From: Frigidibacter albus
Lineage (GTDB): Bacteria > Pseudomonadota > Alphaproteobacteria > Rhodobacterales > Rhodobacteraceae
Length of the DNA stretch: 64,000 nt
NCBI RefSeq assembly: GCF_009908165.1
Contig: NZ_JAAAUC010000003.1
Location: 1 to 64,000, forward strand
Direction: 5' to 3'
Position 1 is the stretch's first letter, and the number at the start of each line of letters is the position of its first letter. Both the position numbers and the translations under genes were made by a program. Under the pieces are notes generated by a model. The model had not been told where the DNA came from, did no database searches, and saw only the letters and a program-made list of their open reading frames with translations. Of this stretch, positions 39,008 through 54,268 are shown piece after piece.

Positions 39008-39206
39008 GCGCGAACACCTTCTGTCCAGAGCGCCAGGCACATGATCGAGTCTCCTCCCGCAAGGGGTATCGCGGCATGGGTGCGGCGATTGATCCGGATA
39101 TCGGAAGGTCTCCTCCCTTGCCGATGTCCCTTGGCTGGTTCATATTTGGTAACGTATAACATTGTCAACCACTCGCGTCGTTACTTCCGCAGGGAATGGG
39201 GGTAGA

Positions 39207-40256
39207 ATGAAGAAAATAGTTAGTGATTACAGGTCTGTAACCCTGAAGGACGTCGCCGCGCTTGCCGATGTTAGCGTTATGACGGCATCCCGCGCCCTGC
39301 GCACGCCCGACCGGGTGTCCGCCAAGATGCGCGCGCGGGTTTCCGAGGCGGTTCAGGCCCTTGGCTATGCCCCGAACGAGGCAGCGCGGGCGCTTGTCTC
39401 GGCCACCAGCTCGACCATCGGGGTGCTGATTCCCTCGATCTCGAACCTGGTGTTTGTGGATGTGCTGCGCGGGATCTACGATGCCGCCGAACAGACGCCC
39501 TACCAGGTGCAGATCGCCAACACCCGCTACCGGGACAGCAAGGAGCAGGAGCTGCTGAAGGTCTTCGCCGCGCAACGCCCGGCGGGCCTGATCGTGACCG
39601 GTGTCGACCAATCCCCCGAGACGCGGGCGATCCTGTCGGGCCTTGGCTGCCCCGTGGTGCAGATCATGGATGTCAGCGCCGACCCGGTGGACATGATGAT
39701 CGGCTTCGACCATCGCCGCGCGGCCTATGCGGCGACGCGGCATCTGGTCGATCAGGGCTATCGCCGCATCGGCTTCATCGGCGCGCGGATGGACCCCCGC
39801 AGCCAGAAGCGGCTGGATGGCTATATCGACGCGCTGACCGAGGCGGACCTGTTCGACGACGCGCTGATCCTCACCTCGCCGCAGCCCACCTCCGTCGCGC
39901 TTGGCAGCCGGATGTTCGGCGAGTTTCTGGCGATGGCGCCCGATGCCGATGCCGTGTTCTGCAACAACGACGACATGGCGCTTGGCGCGCTGTTCGAATG
40001 CCAGCGCCGGCATATCCGGGTGCCGGGGCAGTTCGGCATCATGGGCTACAACAATATCGAATATGCCGCCGCCAGCGCGCCCTCGCTCTCGTCCATCAAG
40101 ACGCCCTGCTACGAGATGGGGCAGGGCGCCGTGCAGATGATCGCGGCGGCGGCGCGGGGGCAGAGGCCCGAGCCGGGCAATGTCGATCTGGGCTGCCAGC
40201 TGATGCCGCGCGAGAGCACGGATCGCGGCGCAGGCCGGGTCCGCGCGGCGGGCTGA
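39207..40256 (+). CDS. LacI-family regulator of TRAP transporter 1 region
   Basis: 349 aa. HTH VTLKDVAALADVSVMTASRALRTPDRVS, hinge helix AARALVSATSS, then a sensor domain (IGVLIPSISNLVFVDVLRGI). It resembles the GntR/GclR-type gluconate branch of the family. It is divergent from dctQ with a ~199-base AT-richer gap; on the minus strand TTGACA-17-ATATGA (about 39145-39173) is a fair promoter for the TRAP genes. The start at ATG 39207 has only a weak GGGGG ribosome site. The effector is inferred to be a sugar acid. Confidence 0.88.
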   Translation: MKKIVSDYRSVTLKDVAALADVSVMTASRALRTPDRVSAKMRARVSEAVQALGYAPNEAARALVSATSSTIGVLIPSISNLVFVDVLRGIYDAAEQTPYQVQIANTRYRDSKEQELLKVFAAQRPAGLIVTGVDQSPETRAILSGLGCPVVQIMDVSADPVDMMIGFDHRRAAYAATRHLVDQGYRRIGFIGARMDPRSQKRLDGYIDALTEADLFDDALILTSPQPTSVALGSRMFGEFLAMAPDADAVFCNNDDMALGALFECQRRHIRVPGQFGIMGYNNIEYAAASAPSLSSIKTPCYEMGQGAVQMIAAAARGQRPEPGNVDLGCQLMPRESTDRGAGRVRAAG

Positions 40257-44357: not shown

Positions 44358-46136
44358 ATGGCCGACACCCCCAAACGCCGTCTGCGCTCGCAGGACTGGT
44401 TCGACAATCCCGACCATCTCGACATGACCGCGCTCTATCTCGAACGGTTCATGAACTACGGGATCACGCCCGAGGAATTGCGGTCGGGCAAGCCAGTGAT
44501 CGGCATCGCGCAAAGCGGCAGCGACCTGACGCCCTGCAACCGGGTGCATATGGATCTGGTGACGCGGGTGCGCGACGGCATCCGCGATGCGGGCGGCATT
44601 CCGATCGTGTTCCCGACCCATCCGATCTTCGAGAACTGCAAGCGCCCGACCGCGGCGCTGGACCGCAACCTGGCCTATCTGGGGCTGGTGGAAGTGCTGT
44701 TCGGCTATCCGCTGGACGGGGTCGTGCTGACCACCGGCTGCGACAAGACCACCCCCTCGGCGCTGATGGCAGCCTCCACCGTCGATATTCCGGCCATCGT
44801 GCTGTCGGGCGGGCCGATGCTGGATGGCTGGCATGATGGCGATCTGGTCGGTTCGGGCACCGTGATCTGGCGGATGCGGCGCAAATATGCGGCCGGAGAG
44901 ATCGACCGCGAGGAATTCCTGCAGGCCGCGCTGGAATCCGCGCCCTCGGTCGGCCATTGCAACACCATGGGCACCGCTTCGACCATGAACGCGCTGGCCG
45001 AGGCGCTTGGCATGTCGCTGACCGGCTGCGGCGCGATCCCGGCCCCCTACCGCGAGCGGGGGCAGATGGCCTATCGCACCGGGCGCCGGGCGGTAGAGAT
45101 CGTGTGGGAAGACCTCAAGCCCTCGGACATCCTGACCCGCGAGGCGTTCCTGAACGCCATCCGCGTGAACTCCGCCATCGGCGGGTCCACCAACGCGCAG
45201 CCGCATCTGGCGGCCATGGCGAAACATGCGGGGGTGGAACTGCATCCCGAAGACTGGCAGCTGCACGGCCTCGACATCCCGCTGCTGGCGAATGTCCAGC
45301 CGGCGGGCGCCTATCTCGGCGAGCGCTATCACCGCGCCGGCGGCACGCCCGCGGTGATGTGGGAGCTGCTGCAGGCGGGGCTGATCGAGCCCTCTTGCCG
45401 CACGGTGACCGGGCAGAGCATGGGCGAGAACCTGCAAGGGCGCGAGGCTACGGACCGCGAGGTGATCCGCCCCTTCGCGCAGCCGCTGCGCGAGCGGGCG
45501 GGGTTCCTGGTGCTCAGCGGCAACCTCTTTGACTTCGCCATCATGAAGATGAGCGTCGTGTCGGACGGGTTCCGCGACCGCTATCTCAGCGAGCCGGGCA
45601 ATGAGGGCGTGTTCGAGGGCAAGGCGGTGGTGTTCGACGGCTCCGAGGACTACCACGCCCGCATCAACGACCCGGACCTCGGCGTCGACGAGCGCACCAT
45701 CCTGGTGATCCGCGGCGCCGGGCCCGTGGGCTGGCCCGGTTCGGCCGAGGTCGTGAACATGCAGCCGCCTGACGCTTTGCTGAAGCGGGGAATCCAGTCG
45801 CTGCCCACCATCGGCGACGGGCGGCAATCGGGTACGGCGGACAGTCCCTCGATCCTCAACGCCTCACCCGAAAGCGCGGTGGGCGGTGGCCTGTCGCTGC
45901 TGCGCAGCGGCGATGTGATCCGCATCGACTTCAACAAGGGCCGTTGCGACATGCTGGTCGATGATACCGAGATCGCCCGGCGCAAGACCGAGCCTGCCCC
46001 GCCGATTCCGGCAGATGCGACCCCGTGGCAGCGCCTCTATCGCCAAACGGTGACGCAGCTGTCGGATGGCGCGATCATTGAGGGCGCCGACGATTTCCGC
46101 GGCATTTCGCGCACCCTGCCGCGGCACAACCACTAG
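44358..46136 (+). CDS. xylD: IlvD/Edd-family pentonate dehydratase (XylD/AraC-type, [2Fe-2S])
   Basis: 592 aa, the length of D-xylonate and L-arabinonate dehydratases. Cys60 (DLTPC), Cys128 (TTGCDKTT) and Cys201 (VGHCNTMG) match the three [2Fe-2S] ligands of the sugar-acid branch of this family. AIGGSTNAQPHL and GRQSGTADSPSILNASPE are in place. It dehydrates an aldonate to a 2-keto-3-deoxy acid, the substrate expected by the XylX-like enzyme at 40301. Last gene of the denD operon. The actual pentonate (xylonate, arabinonate or other) is unproven. Confidence 0.87.
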   Translation: MADTPKRRLRSQDWFDNPDHLDMTALYLERFMNYGITPEELRSGKPVIGIAQSGSDLTPCNRVHMDLVTRVRDGIRDAGGIPIVFPTHPIFENCKRPTAALDRNLAYLGLVEVLFGYPLDGVVLTTGCDKTTPSALMAASTVDIPAIVLSGGPMLDGWHDGDLVGSGTVIWRMRRKYAAGEIDREEFLQAALESAPSVGHCNTMGTASTMNALAEALGMSLTGCGAIPAPYRERGQMAYRTGRRAVEIVWEDLKPSDILTREAFLNAIRVNSAIGGSTNAQPHLAAMAKHAGVELHPEDWQLHGLDIPLLANVQPAGAYLGERYHRAGGTPAVMWELLQAGLIEPSCRTVTGQSMGENLQGREATDREVIRPFAQPLRERAGFLVLSGNLFDFAIMKMSVVSDGFRDRYLSEPGNEGVFEGKAVVFDGSEDYHARINDPDLGVDERTILVIRGAGPVGWPGSAEVVNMQPPDALLKRGIQSLPTIGDGRQSGTADSPSILNASPESAVGGGLSLLRSGDVIRIDFNKGRCDMLVDDTEIARRKTEPAPPIPADATPWQRLYRQTVTQLSDGAIIEGADDFRGISRTLPRHNH

Positions 46137-46182
46137 CCAGACGGAGCCGCCCGCGGCGCGCGGGAGGTCCTGCTGCGGCAGA

Positions 46183-46220
46183 ATGATAGACGTCTGTCAA
46201 AACTGATTGACGTCTATCAT
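46183..46220. promoter_or_regulatory. Tandem LacI-type operators with 12-bp inverted arms
   Basis: ATGATAGACGTC (46183-46194) and GACGTCTATCAT (46209-46220) are perfect inverted repeats. Each is half of a 16-bp pseudo-palindrome, TGATAGACGTCTGTCA and TGATTGACGTCTATCA, whose centres are exactly 20 bases apart, two helix turns. They lie 34 bases before the LacI gene at 46254 and probably cover its promoter. Confidence 0.85.
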
Positions 46221-46253
46221 CTCCTCTGTGAGGCTCTTCGTGGGAGGAGAATC

Positions 46254-47300
46254 ATGAGAAGCCCCACGCTGCATGATGTAGCGCGGTCAGCAGGTGTCAG
46301 TTATTCGACAGCTGATCGCGTCTTGAATGGTCGGGGCGGTGTCGCGGAGAAATCCGCGCAGCGTGTCCAGCGCGCCATCGAGGAATTGGGCTACCGGCGC
46401 GACATTCACGCCGCCAACCTGTCGCGGCGCCGCAACTACCGCTTCCTCTTTCTTCTGCCGCGGGGCGATCACGGCTTCTTCACCGTCCTGCGCGAGGCGC
46501 TTGCGCGCGAAACCGTCCGGCGCATGGTGGACCGGCTGGTGATCACCCACCGCGAGGTCCCGGCCTTCGACGCAGAGGCGCTCGCGGCGGAACTCGACGC
46601 GACCAATCCCGAGGATTACGACTGTGTCGCGCTGATCGGTGTGGACTCGGCGGCGCTGGATACGGCGATCCGTCGGCTGGTCGAGAACCGGCTGCCGGTC
46701 ATCACCCTCGTCTCCGACAGCGCCAGCGATCTGCGCCAGTCCTATATCGGCATCGACAACGTCATCGCCGGCCGCACCGCGGGCCGCCTGATGCGCCTGA
46801 CCCATCTGGGCCGGACGGGGAAGGTCCAGCCGATCCTGGGCACCCTTGGCGTGCGCGACCACCGCGACCGCCTGCAGGGCGCGACCGAAGTGATTGCGGC
46901 CGCCGGGTCCGGCCTTCAGATCCTGCCGCCCATCGAGGTGCAGGACCGGCCCGAGATCATGCTGGGCCGCCTCAGCGACATCTTGCAGGGCGATCCCGGC
47001 ATCACCGGGATCTACTCGATCGGCGGCGGCAACCGCGGGCTGATCGAGCTGCTGGACCGGATCACCGGCCCGCGCCCCGTGGCCGTGCTGCACGAGTTGA
47101 CCCCGCACAGCCGTGCCGCGTTGGAGCGGGGGGTGATCGACGCGGTCATCGACCAGAAGCCGGCCGAAGAAATCAGCCGCGCCATCGACGCGATGCGCGC
47201 CATTGCCGACGACATGCCTGCCCCGGACAGCCGCGTCGTCCCGACAATCTACCTGGCAGACAACCTGCCTGACCAAAATGCCAATGGAGGATGGACGTGA
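46254..47300 (+). CDS. LacI-family regulator of the xylA operon
   Basis: 348 aa. [30 protein letters not shown] has Asp where most LacI proteins have Ser (TADRVLN against TVSRVLN), which may suit its ACGTC-containing operators. A LacI/RbsB-like sensor domain follows ([36 protein letters not shown]), of the type that binds monosaccharides. GGGAGGAG precedes ATG 46254. The xylA start lies inside its 3' end, so it heads the operon it controls. Confidence 0.92.
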
Positions 47301-48601
47301 GCGACTATTTCAGAAAAATCGCCCCGCTGAGCTTTGCACCGGACAGCGAGAACCTTGCGTTCCGTCACTACGATGCGGACGAGATCGTCCTTGGCAAACC
47401 GATGAAGGACCACCTGCGCTTTGCCGTCGCCTATTGGCACAGCTTCGGCTGGGAAGGCGGCGATCCCTTTGGCGGGCGCACCTTCGAGCGGCCCTGGTTC
47501 CCCGCCGACACGATGGCACTGGCCGAGGCGCGGGCGGAGGCGGCCTTCGACTTCTTCCGCATCCTCGGCGCGCCCTATTACTGCTTCCACGACCATGACG
47601 TGCGCCCCGAAGGCGCCAGCCTGGCCGAAAGCCGCGACCGGCTGAACCGAATCGCCGACATCTTCCAGCAGAAGATGGAGGCGGGCGGGCCCAAGCTGCT
47701 GTGGGGCACCGCCAACCTCTTCTCCAACCGCCGCTACATGTCGGGCGCGGCGACGAACCCCGACCCGGATGTCTTCGCCTATGCCGCCGCGACGGTGCGC
47801 GACTGCCTCGACGTGACCCAGCGGCTGGGGGGCGAGAATTACGTGCTTTGGGGCGGGCGCGAGGGCTATGAGACGCTGCTGAACACCGATCTGGGGAAGG
47901 AGCTGGACCAGATGGGCCGGTTCCTGTCGATGGTCGTGGACTACAAGCACCGCATCGGCTTCAAGGGCGCGATCCTGATCGAGCCGAAGCCGCAGGAACC
48001 GACCAAGCACCAGTATGATTACGACGTCGCCACCGTCTATGGCTTCCTGCGCCGCTATGGGCTGGAGGAGGAGGTGAAGGTGAATATCGAGCAGGGCCAC
48101 GCGATCCTTGCGGGCCACAGCTTCGAGCATGAGATCGCGCTGGCCAATGCGCTTGGCATCTTCGGATCGATCGACATGAACCGCAATGACCAGCAATCGG
48201 GCTGGGATACCGACCAGTTCCCGAGCAACGTGCCCGAAGTGGCGCTGGCCTATTACGAGATCCTCAGGGGCGGCGGCTTCACCACCGGCGGCACCAATTT
48301 CGACGCCAAGATCCGTCGCCAGTCGCTGGACGCCGAGGATCTGGTCGCCGCCCATGCCGGCGCGATGGATGTCTGCGCCCGCGGTCTGAAGGCCGCGGCG
48401 AAGATGCTGGAAGAAGGCCGCTTGGAAGCCGCGCGCGATGCTCGCTATGCCGGCTGGCAAAGCGAGGCGGCGCAGGCCATGCTGGCCCCGGGCGCGCGGC
48501 TGGATCAGATCGCCGACGCCGCCGTGGCGCGCGGGCTCGATCCGCAGCCGGTGTCGGGCCGGCAAGAGCAGCTTGAAAACCTCGTGAACCGTTACGTCTG
48601 A
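47297..48601 (+). CDS. xylA: Xylose isomerase
   Basis: 434-aa TIM-barrel isomerase, normal length for the long class. Key motifs: [10 protein letters not shown] (active-site His), [31 protein letters not shown] (metal Glu), [17 protein letters not shown] (metal ligands), [20 protein letters not shown]. It converts D-xylose to D-xylulose, though these enzymes also act on other aldoses. GTG 47297 is preferred; ATG 47291 directly abuts its GGAGG. No xylulokinase gene is near. Confidence 0.93.
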
Positions 48602-48612
48602 AGGGGGGAGCC

Positions 48613-49665
48613 ATGAAGACGATCAAGGGACCGGCGCTGTTTCTGGCGCAATTCGCAGGCGATGGCGCGCCGTTCAACTCGTGGGACAGCATCACCAGAT
48701 GGGCCGCGGACTGCGGCTACAAGGGCGTGCAGGTGCCCAGCTGGGATGCGCGGCTGATCGACCTGGCCAAGGCCGCGGACAGCAAGGATTACTGCGACGA
48801 GTTCAAGGGCGTCGCCGCCGCCAACGGCGTGGAGGTGACGGAGCTGTCCACCCACCTTCAGGGCCAATTGGTCGCCGTCCACCCCGCCTATGACGAGGCC
48901 TTCGACGGCTTTGCCGACCCTTCCGTGCGCGGCAACCCCAAGGCCCGGCAGGACTGGGCGGTGGATCAGGTCAAGAAGGCCCTCACCGCCTCGCGCAACA
49001 TGGGCATCGACGCCCACGCGACCTTCTCGGGCGCGCTGGCATGGCCCTTCGTCTACCCTTGGCCGCAGCGCCCGGCGGGTCTGGTGGAAGCCGCCTTTGA
49101 CGAGCTGGCGCGGCGGTGGGTGCCGATCCTGAACCATGCCGAGGACTGCGGGGTCGATGTCTGCTATGAAATCCATCCCGGCGAAGACCTGCATGACGGC
49201 GACAGCTATGAGATGTTCCTGGAGCGGACGGGCAACCACGCGCGGGCCTGCATGCTGTACGACCCCTCGCACTACGTCCTGCAATGCCTTGATTACCTGG
49301 ACAATATCGACATCTACAAGGACCGCATCCGCATGTTCCACGTCAAGGATGCGGAATTCAACCCGACCGGGCGCAAGGGTGTCTATGGCGGCTATCAGGG
49401 TTGGACGAACCGCGCCGGGCGCTTCCGCAGCCTTGGCGACGGGCAGGTGGATTTCGGGGCGGTGTTTTCCAAGATGGCAGCGAACGACTTTGCCGGCTGG
49501 GCCGTGGTCGAATGGGAATGCTGCCTCAAGCACCCCGAAGACGGGGCGCGCGAGGGGGCGGAGTTCGTGAAGTCGCACATCATCCGCGTCACCGAAAAGG
49601 CCTTTGACGATTTCGCGGGCGGCGGCGCCGACGATGCCGCCAACCGCCGTATGCTGGGGATCTGA
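48613..49665 (+). CDS. Sugar phosphate isomerase/epimerase family protein (AP endonuclease 2-like TIM barrel)
   Basis: 350 aa. Xylose-isomerase-like TIM barrel with metal-site segments VCYEIHPGEDLHDG, YDPSHYVLQ, RIRMFHVKDAEFNPTG and WAVVEWEC. Relatives are sugar epimerases, inosose dehydratases and 3-keto-sugar enzymes. It lies 11 bases after xylA and 3 before the Gfo/Idh gene, the common pairing in which an oxidoreductase makes a keto-sugar and the barrel enzyme isomerises it. The exact reaction is unknown. Confidence 0.85.
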   Translation: MKTIKGPALFLAQFAGDGAPFNSWDSITRWAADCGYKGVQVPSWDARLIDLAKAADSKDYCDEFKGVAAANGVEVTELSTHLQGQLVAVHPAYDEAFDGFADPSVRGNPKARQDWAVDQVKKALTASRNMGIDAHATFSGALAWPFVYPWPQRPAGLVEAAFDELARRWVPILNHAEDCGVDVCYEIHPGEDLHDGDSYEMFLERTGNHARACMLYDPSHYVLQCLDYLDNIDIYKDRIRMFHVKDAEFNPTGRKGVYGGYQGWTNRAGRFRSLGDGQVDFGAVFSKMAANDFAGWAVVEWECCLKHPEDGAREGAEFVKSHIIRVTEKAFDDFAGGGADDAANRRMLGI

Positions 49666-49668
49666 GCG

Positions 49669-50811
49669 ATGGAAAAGATCAGGCTGGGCATGGTCGGCGG
49701 CGGCAAGGACGCCTTCATCGGCGCCGTCCACCGCATCGCGGCGCGGATCGACGGCGATTATGATCTGGTGGCGGGGGCACTGTCCTCCACGCCGGACAAG
49801 GCGCGCGAAAGCGGGCTGGCGCTCGGCCTTGCGCCGGACCGTTGCTATGGCAGCTTCGAGGAGATGGCAGAGCGCGAGGCGGCGCGGCCCGACGGCATTC
49901 AGGCGGTGTCGATCGTCACGCCGAACCACATGCACGCGGCCCCAGCCATCGCCTTCCTGAGGCGCGGCATCCATGTGATCTGCGACAAGCCGCTGACCGC
50001 GACGATGGAGCAGGCGGAGGAACTGGCGGCGGCGGTGCGCGGCTCGCAGGCGCTGTTCATCCTGACGCACAATTACACCGGCTACCCGATGATCCGTCAG
50101 GCGCGCGAGATGGTGGCGGCGGGCGATCTGGGCCGCATCCGCGTGGTGCAGGTGGAATACCCGCAGGACTGGCTGACCGAGGCGTCGGAGGCGACCGGCA
50201 GCAACAAGCAGGCCGAATGGCGCACCGACCCCGAACGCTCGGGCGCGGGCGGCTCCATCGGCGACATCGGCACCCATGCGCATAACCTGGCCTGTTTCGT
50301 CACCGGGCTGCAGGTGGAAAAGCTGGCCGCCGACCTGCAGTCTTTCGTGCCGGGGCGGCGGGTGGATGACAATGCGCATATCCTGCTGCGGTTTGCGGGC
50401 GGGGCGCGGGGCAGCCTCTGGTGCAGCCAGGTCGCGCCCGGGAACGAGAATGCCCTGCGCCTGCGCGTCTATGGCGAGAAGGGCGGGCTCGACTGGGCGC
50501 AGGAGGATCCGAACTACCTGTGGCACATGCCCTTCGGCCAGCCCAAGCGGCTGCTGACGCGGGGCGGGGCAGGGGCCTCGGCGGCGGCGGGCGCCGTCAG
50601 CCGCACGCCGGGCGGCCACCCCGAGGGCTATCTGGAGGGCTTCGCCAACATCTATGCCGGCGCCGCGCAGGCGATCCGCGCTTCGGCGAAGGGAGAGCGG
50701 GCGGCGGTGCTGGACCTGCTGCCGGGCCTCGATGCCGGCCTTGCCGGGATGCGCTTCATCGCCGCCGCCGTCGCCTCCTCGCAGGACGATGCCGCCTGGG
50801 TGGCGCTGTGA
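49669..50811 (+). CDS. Gfo/Idh/MocA family oxidoreductase
   Basis: 380 aa. N-terminal Rossmann domain (LGMVGGGKDAFIGAVHRIAA), the EKP-like catalytic segment as CDKPLTATMEQAEEL, and the C-terminal dimerisation domain with GGSIGDIGTHAHNLACFVTG, where the active-site Asp and His reside. It is an NAD(P)-dependent sugar or inositol dehydrogenase. The last residues overlap the ABC ATPase start (GTGA), so the sugar enzymes and transporter are one operon. Confidence 0.9.
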   Translation: MEKIRLGMVGGGKDAFIGAVHRIAARIDGDYDLVAGALSSTPDKARESGLALGLAPDRCYGSFEEMAEREAARPDGIQAVSIVTPNHMHAAPAIAFLRRGIHVICDKPLTATMEQAEELAAAVRGSQALFILTHNYTGYPMIRQAREMVAAGDLGRIRVVQVEYPQDWLTEASEATGSNKQAEWRTDPERSGAGGSIGDIGTHAHNLACFVTGLQVEKLAADLQSFVPGRRVDDNAHILLRFAGGARGSLWCSQVAPGNENALRLRVYGEKGGLDWAQEDPNYLWHMPFGQPKRLLTRGGAGASAAAGAVSRTPGGHPEGYLEGFANIYAGAAQAIRASAKGERAAVLDLLPGLDAGLAGMRFIAAAVASSQDDAAWVAL

Positions 50812-52316
50812 CGGACCCCGTGCTGGCCCTGTCCAATGTCAGCCGCAGCTTCGGGCCCATCGAGGTGCTGCACGGCGTCAGCATGGCGCTGCGCCCCGGC
50901 CGCGTCCATGCGCTGATCGGCGAGAACGGGGCGGGCAAATCGACCACCATGAAGATCATGGCCGGCTATCAGCCCCCCAGCTCCGGCACCGTCCATGTGG
51001 ACGGGCGCGAGACCGCCTTTGCCTCTCTGGGCGAGGCCGAAGCGCTTGGCATTTCGCTGATCCACCAGGAATTCAACCTGGCGGAGCAGCTGACCGCCGA
51101 GCAGAACATCTTCCTGGGGCAGGAGCTGAAGCGCGGGTTGCTGCTGGACAAGCGCGCGATGCGCGCCAGGACGCGAGAGTTGCTGGACCGCCTCGATTGC
51201 CGTGTGCCGGCGGACCGCGTGGTCTCGCAGATGTCGAACTCCGACAAGCAGATGGTGGAGATCGCCAAGGCGTTGCTGCGCGACACCCGGGTGCTGATCA
51301 TGGACGAACCCACCGCCGTGCTGACCAAATCGGAAACCGCGGTGCTGATGCGGCAGGTGCGCGCGTTGCGCGACAAGGGCACGGCAGTGCTGTTCACCTC
51401 GCACAAGCTGGATGAAGTGCGCGAGATTGCCGATGACCTGACCATCATGCGCGACGGGGCGGTGGTGTTCTCCGGCCCCGCCGAGGGAATGGACGAACGC
51501 GCCATGGCCACCGCGATGGTCGGGCGCGAGATGTCGGACCTGTTCCCCGCCAAGACCGGCCGCTTTGGCGACATGGCGCTGGAGGTGCGGGGGCTGACGG
51601 TGCCCGGCTTTGCCGAGGATATCAGCTTCACCCTGCGGCGCGGCGAGATCCTCGGCATCGCCGGGCTGATCGGATCGGGCCGCACCGAAACCTTCGAAGG
51701 GCTCTGCGGCCTGCGCCCCGCCACGGGCGAGGTGCGGATCAAGGGTCAGCCGGTGACCATTCGCCACCCGTGGGAGGCCTTGGACCTTGGCATGTGCTAC
51801 CTGACCGAGGATCGCAAGACCCGCGGGTTGCTGCTGCAAAAGGGCATGCGCGAGAACCTGACCCTGCAGGCGCTGCACAGCTTTGCCCGCGGGCTGATCG
51901 ACAAGGGTGCGGAAGAAACAGCCCTCACCAGGGCCATCGCCGAGTTCGACATCCGCGGCAGCCGCGCGGTGCGGGTCGGCAACCTGTCGGGCGGCAACCA
52001 GCAAAAGCTGCTGTTTGCCAAGACCATGCTGTCCAGCCCCGAGATCGTCATCATCGACGAGCCCACGCGCGGCATCGACATCGGCACCAAGCAGCAGATG
52101 TATGGCTTCATTCGCGGGCTGGCCGATCAGGGCCGCGCCATCGTGGTGATCTCATCGGAAATGCAAGAGGTGATCGGCCTCGCCGACCGCGTTCTGGTGA
52201 TGCGCCAGGGGCGCATCGCCGGCGAGGTACAGGGCGCGTCGCTCACCGAAGATGCCATCGTCCAATTGGCGATGGGTGTGGGGCAACGCGCCCCGGTACT
52301 GGAGACTGCGCAATGA
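50808..52316 (+). CDS. Sugar ABC transporter ATP-binding protein, double domain (RbsA/XylG-type)
   Basis: 502 aa with two ABC domains. Domain 1: Walker A GENGAGKST, Q-loop LIHQEFNLAEQLTAEQN, signature replaced by MSNSDKQM, Walker B VLIMDEPT. Domain 2: degenerate Walker A GLIGSGRTE, intact signature LSGGNQQK, Walker B IVIIDEPTRGIDIGT. A weak second site is normal in this family; loss of the signature glycine in domain 1 also means one composite site is probably non-hydrolytic. GTG 50808 overlaps the Gfo/Idh stop. Binds RbsC-like permease. Confidence 0.93.
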   Translation: MTDPVLALSNVSRSFGPIEVLHGVSMALRPGRVHALIGENGAGKSTTMKIMAGYQPPSSGTVHVDGRETAFASLGEAEALGISLIHQEFNLAEQLTAEQNIFLGQELKRGLLLDKRAMRARTRELLDRLDCRVPADRVVSQMSNSDKQMVEIAKALLRDTRVLIMDEPTAVLTKSETAVLMRQVRALRDKGTAVLFTSHKLDEVREIADDLTIMRDGAVVFSGPAEGMDERAMATAMVGREMSDLFPAKTGRFGDMALEVRGLTVPGFAEDISFTLRRGEILGIAGLIGSGRTETFEGLCGLRPATGEVRIKGQPVTIRHPWEALDLGMCYLTEDRKTRGLLLQKGMRENLTLQALHSFARGLIDKGAEETALTRAIAEFDIRGSRAVRVGNLSGGNQQKLLFAKTMLSSPEIVIIDEPTRGIDIGTKQQMYGFIRGLADQGRAIVVISSEMQEVIGLADRVLVMRQGRIAGEVQGASLTEDAIVQLAMGVGQRAPVLETAQ

Positions 52317-53326: not shown

Positions 53327-54268
53327 ATGAAACATCTCGTATCGGGGCTTGCCCTGTCGGTTGCGCTGGCGGTGCCGGCCCTCGCGCAGGACACCAAGGT
53401 GATCGGCGTGTCGATCCCGGCCGCGACCCATGGCTGGGCGGGCGGCATGAACTACTTTGCCCAGGCCGCCATCGACCGGCTGGAAGAGGCCTATCCCGAG
53501 CTCGACTTCGTGCTCGCCACGGCGTCCGACCCGGGCAAGCAGGTGAACGACATCGAGGACATGGTCGCCACCCGCAACATCGACGCGCTGGTGGTGCTGC
53601 CGTTTGAATCAGAGCCGCTGACCGGCCCGGTGCAGAACGTCAAGGCCTCGGGCGCGTGGATCACGGTCGTGGACCGCGGCCTGTCGGTGCCCGGCATCGA
53701 AGACCTCTATGTCGCAGGCGACAACCCCGGCTTTGGCCGCGTGTCGGGCGAATACATGGCCTCGGCGATGCCAGATGGCGGCAAGATCGTCGTGCTGCGC
53801 GGCATTCCGACCACCATCGACAATGAGCGTGTGGAAGGCTTCGAGGCGGCCATCGAAGGCAAGAACATCGAAGTCATCGGCATGGAGCATGGCAACTGGA
53901 ACCGCGATGACAGCTTCACCGTCATGCAGGATTTCCTGTCCCGGCATCCCCAGATCGACGCGGTCTGGGCGTCGGACGATGACATGGCGGTCGGCGTGCT
54001 GGCGGCCATCGAGGCGGCGGGGCGCGATGACGTCAAGTTCGTGCTCGGCGGCGCCGGCATGAAAGAGATGGTCAAGCGAGTGATGGACGGCGACACGATG
54101 ATCCCGGCGAACGTGACCTATCCGCCGTCGATGATCGCCACCGCCATTGAAATCACCGCCGTCGGCCTTGTGTCGCAGGCGCCGGTTTCTGGCAACTTCA
54201 TCATCGGCTCGGTTCTGGTGACGCCGGAGAATGCCGAGACGTTCTACTACCCCGACAGCCCGTTCTGA
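53327..54268 (+). CDS. Sugar ABC transporter periplasmic binding protein (RbsB-type)
   Basis: 313 aa with a signal peptide (cut near ALAQDT). Type I monosaccharide-binding fold: VIGVSIPAATHGWAGGMNYF at the start, AIDRLEEAYPELDF, WASDDDMAVGVLAAIEAAG near residue 215. It probably binds the sugar acted on by XylA and the Gfo/epimerase pair. GGGAGGAG precedes ATG 53327. It is the final gene of the LacI-xylA operon and is followed by a strong hairpin. Confidence 0.92.
   Translation: MKHLVSGLALSVALAVPALAQDTKVIGVSIPAATHGWAGGMNYFAQAAIDRLEEAYPELDFVLATASDPGKQVNDIEDMVATRNIDALVVLPFESEPLTGPVQNVKASGAWITVVDRGLSVPGIEDLYVAGDNPGFGRVSGEYMASAMPDGGKIVVLRGIPTTIDNERVEGFEAAIEGKNIEVIGMEHGNWNRDDSFTVMQDFLSRHPQIDAVWASDDDMAVGVLAAIEAAGRDDVKFVLGGAGMKEMVKRVMDGDTMIPANVTYPPSMIATAIEITAVGLVSQAPVSGNFIIGSVLVTPENAETFYYPDSPF

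Follow-up and report, generated by a model that had tools for sequence, protein, structure and literature searches.

A 38-bp element upstream of a sugar operon of Frigidibacter albus is probably the autoregulatory region of the operon's own LacI-family repressor, at which two adjacent repressor dimers would block the promoter, probably in a cooperative manner. The element lies in the 64,000-nucleotide stretch of DNA that was analysed here (the window) and consists of two LacI-type palindromes, the second of which holds a putative −35 box (Table 1). Comparison of related loci separates three constraints on the 37-bp element, namely the repressor contacts (TGA, ACGT), the embedded −35 box in the proximal inner half, and an unexplained coupling of the outer halves across dimers.

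We propose that two homodimers of the LacI/Peripla_BP_4 regulator occupy neighbouring sites some two helical turns from each other, and thus the same face of the DNA. The proximal dimer would cover the −35 box, itself part of one half-site, and the distal site just upstream would probably aid the cooperative filling of this compromised proximal site. Once bound, the dimers would keep RNA polymerase from the promoter of the lacI-xylA-iolE-like-gfo/idh-ABC transporter genes, until a sugar inducer, which may be D-xylose or a related pentose or polyol, releases the repressor.

Table 1. Features of the double operator and the downstream operon.
Feature	Coordinates	Strand	Basis or remark
Whole 38-bp quasi-palindrome	46183-46220	n/a	Perfect 12-bp outer arms; relatives show outer-arm covariation
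Distal operator TGATAGACGTCTGTCA	46184-46199	+	LacI-type 16-bp palindrome; genus-mate G001 has TGACATACGTCTGTCA at the same position
A-rich linker AAAC between operators	46200-46203	+	In relatives, AAAAA or GAAAA commonest
Proximal operator TGATTGACGTCTATCA	46204-46219	+	LacI-type 16-bp palindrome; G001 copy identical
Putative −35 hexamer TTGACG, in left half of proximal operator	46207-46212	+	Column profile of 45 distinct loci
Putative weak −10 hexamer GAGGCT, 17-bp spacer	46230-46235	+	Same 45-locus profile
LacI-family regulator, recognition helix YSTADRVLN	46254-47300	+	HTH PF00356 and Peripla_BP_4 PF13407
Xylose isomerase xylA	47291-48601	+	TIGR02630, above cut-off
Xylose-isomerase-like TIM-barrel protein (IolE-like)	48613-49665	+	IolE model matched below cut-off
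Gfo/Idh/MocA oxidoreductase	49669-50811	+	Family match
Sugar ABC transporter ATP-binding protein	50793-52316	+	Start codon picked by eye
Permease, after the ATP-binding gene	end 53299		Named by eye from sequence
Periplasmic binding protein, after the permease	53327-54268		Named by eye from sequence

The double operator and its regulator

The two operators are offset by 20 bp, measured from start to start. Their outer arms, ATGATAGACGTC (46183-46194) and GACGTCTATCAT (46209-46220), form an inverted repeat of 12 bp without a mismatch, and the inner halves match imperfectly, just as the sequence-only reading of the window had placed and described them. The element is intergenic, with a dehydratase gene (44358-46136) upstream and the ATG of the regulator gene 33 bp downstream. 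In the 4.19 Mb of the organism's own genome, TGATNGACGTCNATCA has no further match with at most one mismatch, which argues against a chance origin of the double operator. With a looser operator pattern, the sole other one-mismatch place in this genome falls within a 367-aa open frame, and the operator scans found no regulon outside the sugar operon here. Zero-mismatch operator matches far from the regulator were seen in genomes G010, G433 and G324.

The regulator combines an N-terminal LacI helix-turn-helix (PF00356, E 7.6e-15, over the gathering score) with a ligand domain that resembles periplasmic binding proteins (PF13407, Peripla_BP_4, E 7.2e-31). These two domains, and an even palindrome with a central CG near its own gene, assign the protein to the LacI family. 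LacI proper carries a C-terminal tetramerisation helix built of leucine heptads. In the regulator, the Pfam ligand domain ends at residue 319 of 348, and no leucine-heptad helix was seen by eye in the remaining tail of about 29 residues. Thus, of the two forms of cooperative binding put forward in the sequence-only reading, we dropped the tetramer, a by-eye judgement, and kept the pair of dimers, which the comparison of loci suggests. A second LacI-family regulator, of the Peripla_BP_3 class and with a T-A-S-R helix, is encoded about 6 kb upstream (39162-40256) near sugar-acid genes.

Recognition-helix classes and their operators

Homologues were collected in two protein searches, one of 101 genomes, 26 of which gave a match at E 1e-20, and one of 390 genomes from the order, 102 of which gave a match at E 1e-50. 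From the 46 rows of the first set, 16 without a locus were left out, as was L011, a split gene of genome G003; from the 108 rows of the second, two near contig ends were left out (G102:C18 and G245:C93). The 130 loci scanned (29 + 28 + 73) were all found by similarity to the window regulator. Over the 200 bp that precede the regulators of these 130 loci, TGANNNACGTNNNTCA with all 10 fixed bases is present at 74 of 24,050 positions; it is present at none of 130,608 genic positions and none of the 50,050 positions lying 201–600 bp upstream.

The TADRVLN helix, regarded as atypical from the window sequence, turned out to be the mark of a subfamily, since all 130 of the similarity-selected homologues have Asp in the recognition helix, at a position that we take to correspond to Ser21 of E. 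coli LacI (LacI numbering). Among these Asp-bearing relatives, ACGTC operators accompany Tyr at the first helix position rather than Leu or Arg. In the Tyr class (Tyr17; 25 loci) the half-site is TGATAGAC, the Leu-Ala class has mostly a single asymmetric site, TGATTGACGTACCTCA, and the Arg class has TGANNCAC (2 loci). Many of the 86 Leu-Ala loci have no upstream site, and their sites with 9 or 10 of the 10 fixed bases total 41. As the helix classes are also clades, the relation between residue and operator is an association and does not prove a contact. No Tyr17 locus lacks a site: each of the 25 has one or more that keep 9 or 10 of the 10 fixed bases and fall no further than about 100 bp from the aligned start. 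In the 1.5 kb downstream, 19 of them, the window included, carry a xylA homologue, and the other six carry another homologue of the window operon. At G133:C6:231341-233648 (L051, L068), head-to-head paralogous regulators of the Tyr and Leu-Ser classes are separated by operators that differ and make up a natural specificity pair.

The association resembles that described by Camas et al. 2010 (PMC2978694), in which the variable operator bases correlate with the residues that open the recognition helix. The code of that study covers only the TVSR set (1490 of 2639 domains; AA-17 to AA-20), with the backbone (T)G-A-CG-T-C(A). Here, by contrast, the helix is T[V/A]DR (T-A-D-R in the window), and the half-site TGANNNAC is one base longer than that backbone. 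The Tyr, Leu and Arg classes of the Asp-bearing helix could thus provide an entry to the recognition code of a set outside the published one.

Spacing of the operator pairs

Two sites are present at 13 of the 25 protein-found Tyr17 loci, five times at 20 bp and eight times at 21 bp, so that the two-turn, same-face spacing first noticed in the window recurs in 13 of 13 pairs. Single recognisable sites are found at the other 12 loci, seven of the distal type without TTGAC inside (L012, L047, L049, L051, L052, L054 and L059) and five of the proximal type (L039-L041, L062 and L066); the pair is therefore not obligatory. These single-site loci favour an alternative in which a single operator works at a time and the other, a spare, comes and goes freely, without cooperativity. 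A spare site would need no fixed phasing, however, and the 20 or 21 bp found in all 13 of these pairs and in every Tyr17 pair of the scan described below argues against it, so that we regard this alternative as improbable.

The scan left the spacing free (0–30 bp between two sites) and covered the genomes of about 85,000 species, in which it found 56 stretches with 63 pairs. Thirty-four pairs lie within 1.5 kb of a LacI helix-turn-helix, 20 at 21 bp, four at 20 bp, nine at 30 bp and one at 44 bp; this neighbour count comes from a regular expression that can miss LacI genes, and it includes a case, L208, whose helix lies 1,049 bp away. Hence 33 of the 34 are spaced by 20, 21 or 30 bp, and the 44-bp pair adjoins a protein of the TVSR type. 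The 29 pairs with no LacI helix-turn-helix detected nearby are spread over 13 spacings (5 at 30 bp, 2 at 21 bp).

Other arrangements were seen in the same data. Arg-class regulators (L166, L175, L180, L185, L189, L201, L217 and L218) have operator pairs at a spacing of 30 bp. Thermoanaerobaculia bacterium Chersky.31_28 has tandem palindromes, for example TGATTGACGTCAATCA and TGATCGACGTCAATCA, at 42-bp spacing on three contigs (L174, L195 and L196); no LacI helix was found within 1.5 kb of them, and they are perhaps a dispersed repeat family. In Odoribacteraceae bacterium Im510_bin68 (L164, L182), each of two contigs has three TGATTAACGTTGATCA-like palindromes at 23-bp spacing, and a LacI helix was not found nearby.

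Tandem sites of this sort have been described before. Ravcheev et al. 2014 (PMC4052901) found tandem sites of LacI-family transcription factors upstream of 1118 operons, with distance peaks at 13, 22 and 32 bp, interpreted the 22- and 32-bp peaks as cooperative binding, and counted autoregulation in 72%. Among the groups described there as having double sites only, RafR of Enterobacteriales and ScrR of Burkholderiales are the closest in design, with two even central-CG palindromes about two turns apart that were read as cooperative dimers. The pairs studied here differ from these in four ways: the spacing is 20–21 bp, and 30 bp in paralogues, instead of 21–22 bp; 12 of 25 members have a single recognisable site; most pairs appear to hold a −35 box in the proximal site; and the half-site exceeds the canonical LacI one by one base pair.

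The −35 box in the proximal operator

TTGAC is present in 22 of 27 proximal-left halves and in only 2 of 81 other halves of distinct Tyr pairs (Fisher P 4e-16, uncorrected for relatedness); L044-L046, L183 and L212 are the five pairs that lack it in the proximal site. Given this enrichment, the operator seems to incorporate a −35 box that makes the proximal site asymmetric, which likely explains the imperfect inner half of that site in the window. A profile was drawn from 45 distinct Tyr- and Leu-class loci, picked for GATTGAC and aligned on TTGACG. In it, the hexamer exactly 17 bp downstream has A at position 2 in 58% and T at position 6 in 64% of loci. A consensus promoter scan of the window did not report the weak −10 GAGGCT.

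The genus-mate G003, in which the regulator is interrupted, has an intact distal site and a degraded right half of the proximal site (TGATTGACCTCTACCG), with TTGAC kept. As a single case, this pattern is no more than suggestive of the proposed arrangement. The orthologous regulator gene of this genome (L067, G003:C1:3041000-3055000) is split just past the part encoding the helix-turn-helix by an insert of about 11 kb, whose frames resemble, by eye, transposase and cellulose-synthase genes; seven window positions are present in both flanking pieces.

Covariation of the outer half-sites

Merging the 93 Tyr records with identical first 200 residues left 57 distinct ones, 43 of which have a pair; the 14 without include L067, which is the piece from G003, and L068, which has an overlap with L051. 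L221, L227 and L235, in which the expression found no Tyr helix, were left out of the tests. Thirteen of the 43 pairs come from patterns that fix the spacing at 21 bp and carry no weight on spacing. We compared the four half-sites (distal-left, distal-right, proximal-left and proximal-right) in 42 of the 43 pairs, omitting one with a protein piece of less than 60 residues. The distal-left half equals the proximal-right half in 20 of 42 loci, against 6.0 expected by shuffling, and in these loci the remaining five comparisons show no significant excess. The excess holds when loci are clustered by protein identity at 90% (15.0 of 37 against 4.3), 80% (12.3 of 30 against 3.6) and 70% (7.0 of 22 against 2.9, P 0.0005), and is no longer significant at 60% (2.7 of 12 clusters against 1.6, P 0.19). 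It is seen in each source of loci, although these share descent: the protein search (7/13, P 0.003), the spacing-free scan (9/17, P 0.0004) and the 37-mer pattern (5/13, P 0.004).

Among 35 distinct 21-bp pairs, the outer arms have 15 cells in which both sides changed, against 5.6 in shuffled sets, of which 0 of 500 reach 15; for the operators' own dyads (4 cells against 7.5) and the inner arms (2 against 2.3) no covariation was found. The half-sites of different dimers thus seem to covary, and those of the same dimer do not. Treating the whole 38 bp as one larger inverted repeat, as the sequence-only reading had done, is therefore more than a description.

Covarying arms would also be produced by an RNA or DNA hairpin, acting as a terminator or insulator after the dehydratase gene, in place of two operators, and the 38-nt strand does fold stably (−12.9 kcal/mol, against a shuffle mean of −2.4). 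This explanation is very improbable. The inner arms do not covary, the base sequence itself is conserved (TGA, ACGT, TCA), the single-site loci are unable to form the hairpin, and the element is upstream of the inferred transcription start. Moreover, no terminator-like site was found at 46100-46300, which together with the inner arms speaks against a terminator in particular.

Origin of the outer-arm matching

Tentatively, we hypothesise that the 37-bp double operator, and not the single operator, is the evolving unit, and that template switching during replication, with the conserved inner arms and their A-rich loop of 4–5 nt as primer, rewrites one outer half-site from the other. Were the inner arms to prime it, the switch would affect the outer ones. 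Repressor binding and the embedded −35 box would keep the inner arms from changing, and a mutational mechanism would in this way keep the outer contacts of adjoining repressor dimers alike. Template switching at quasipalindromes is known to make their arms alike (PMC7202029), and PMC8604942, which cites the conservation of short repeats in proteobacterial non-coding DNA, describes the inversion of spacers. Our proposal shares with this correction the copying of one arm of a near-palindrome onto the other across a small loop (PMC7202029, PMC8604942). The matched passages document the process in lacZ reporters of E. coli, at mutation hot spots and in genes of yeast, and for paired repressor operators it is here proposed and not proven.

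The arm identity above chance that was observed, specific to the outer arms of the larger repeat, is what template switching would give, although it loses significance at 60% clustering. In a tree-based count, same-state co-changes number 2.7, against 0–0.7 in controls, whereas the total of co-changes is 8.0 against 8.6 (P 0.73). Copy tracts that run past the operator were not found, as flank positions 1–8 have no excess complementarity in the 43 loci, flank complementarity is no higher in matched than in unmatched loci (1.38 against 1.91 of 5), and the matching flanks of matched loci are no longer either. A TTTT and a TTTTT linker were each seen in one of the 43 pairs, the rest being mostly A-rich; spacer inversion would produce such linkers, but with two cases this is no proof.

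Because the flanks and the total of co-changes speak against template switching, we keep it as a tentative reading beside a rival, selection for a symmetric complex of two dimers whose outer subunits read DNA unlike the inner ones. Such selection would account for matching that stops at the operator edge, for matched loci that are no richer in flank complementarity and for total co-changes that are not in excess. We regard it as nearly as likely as template switching, and each of the two as less likely than not. Two findings speak against such selection. L186 and L222 are sister loci with the same recognition helix and hinge, yet their outer arms have come to differ on both sides at the same two positions (TGAT/TGCC), so that in this clearest case a change of protein specificity is unlikely to be the cause. 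Furthermore, the 12 distinct 30-bp pairs, taken over all classes, show no clear outer matching (3/12 against 1.7 expected, P 0.24).

Should the coupling be mutational, models of operator evolution that treat half-sites as independent would be wrong for closely spaced sites. Two-turn tandem LacI operators are known, and the coupling of the outer arms is the new part, among the matches listed in our literature searches. No earlier account of the operator or of outer-arm coupling was among these matches, in which the Ravcheev and Camas papers come nearest; the motif may stand in their supplements or in RegPrecise. Likewise, the matches listed included no LacI-operator paper in a text search with the operator letters, and no paper on repressor operators evolving by template switching.

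The 30-bp pairs match in another manner, as direct repeats, with distal-left equal to proximal-left in 4 of 12 (P 0.013) and distal-right equal to proximal-right in 5 of 12 (P 0.001), a pattern that the 20–21-bp pairs do not share.
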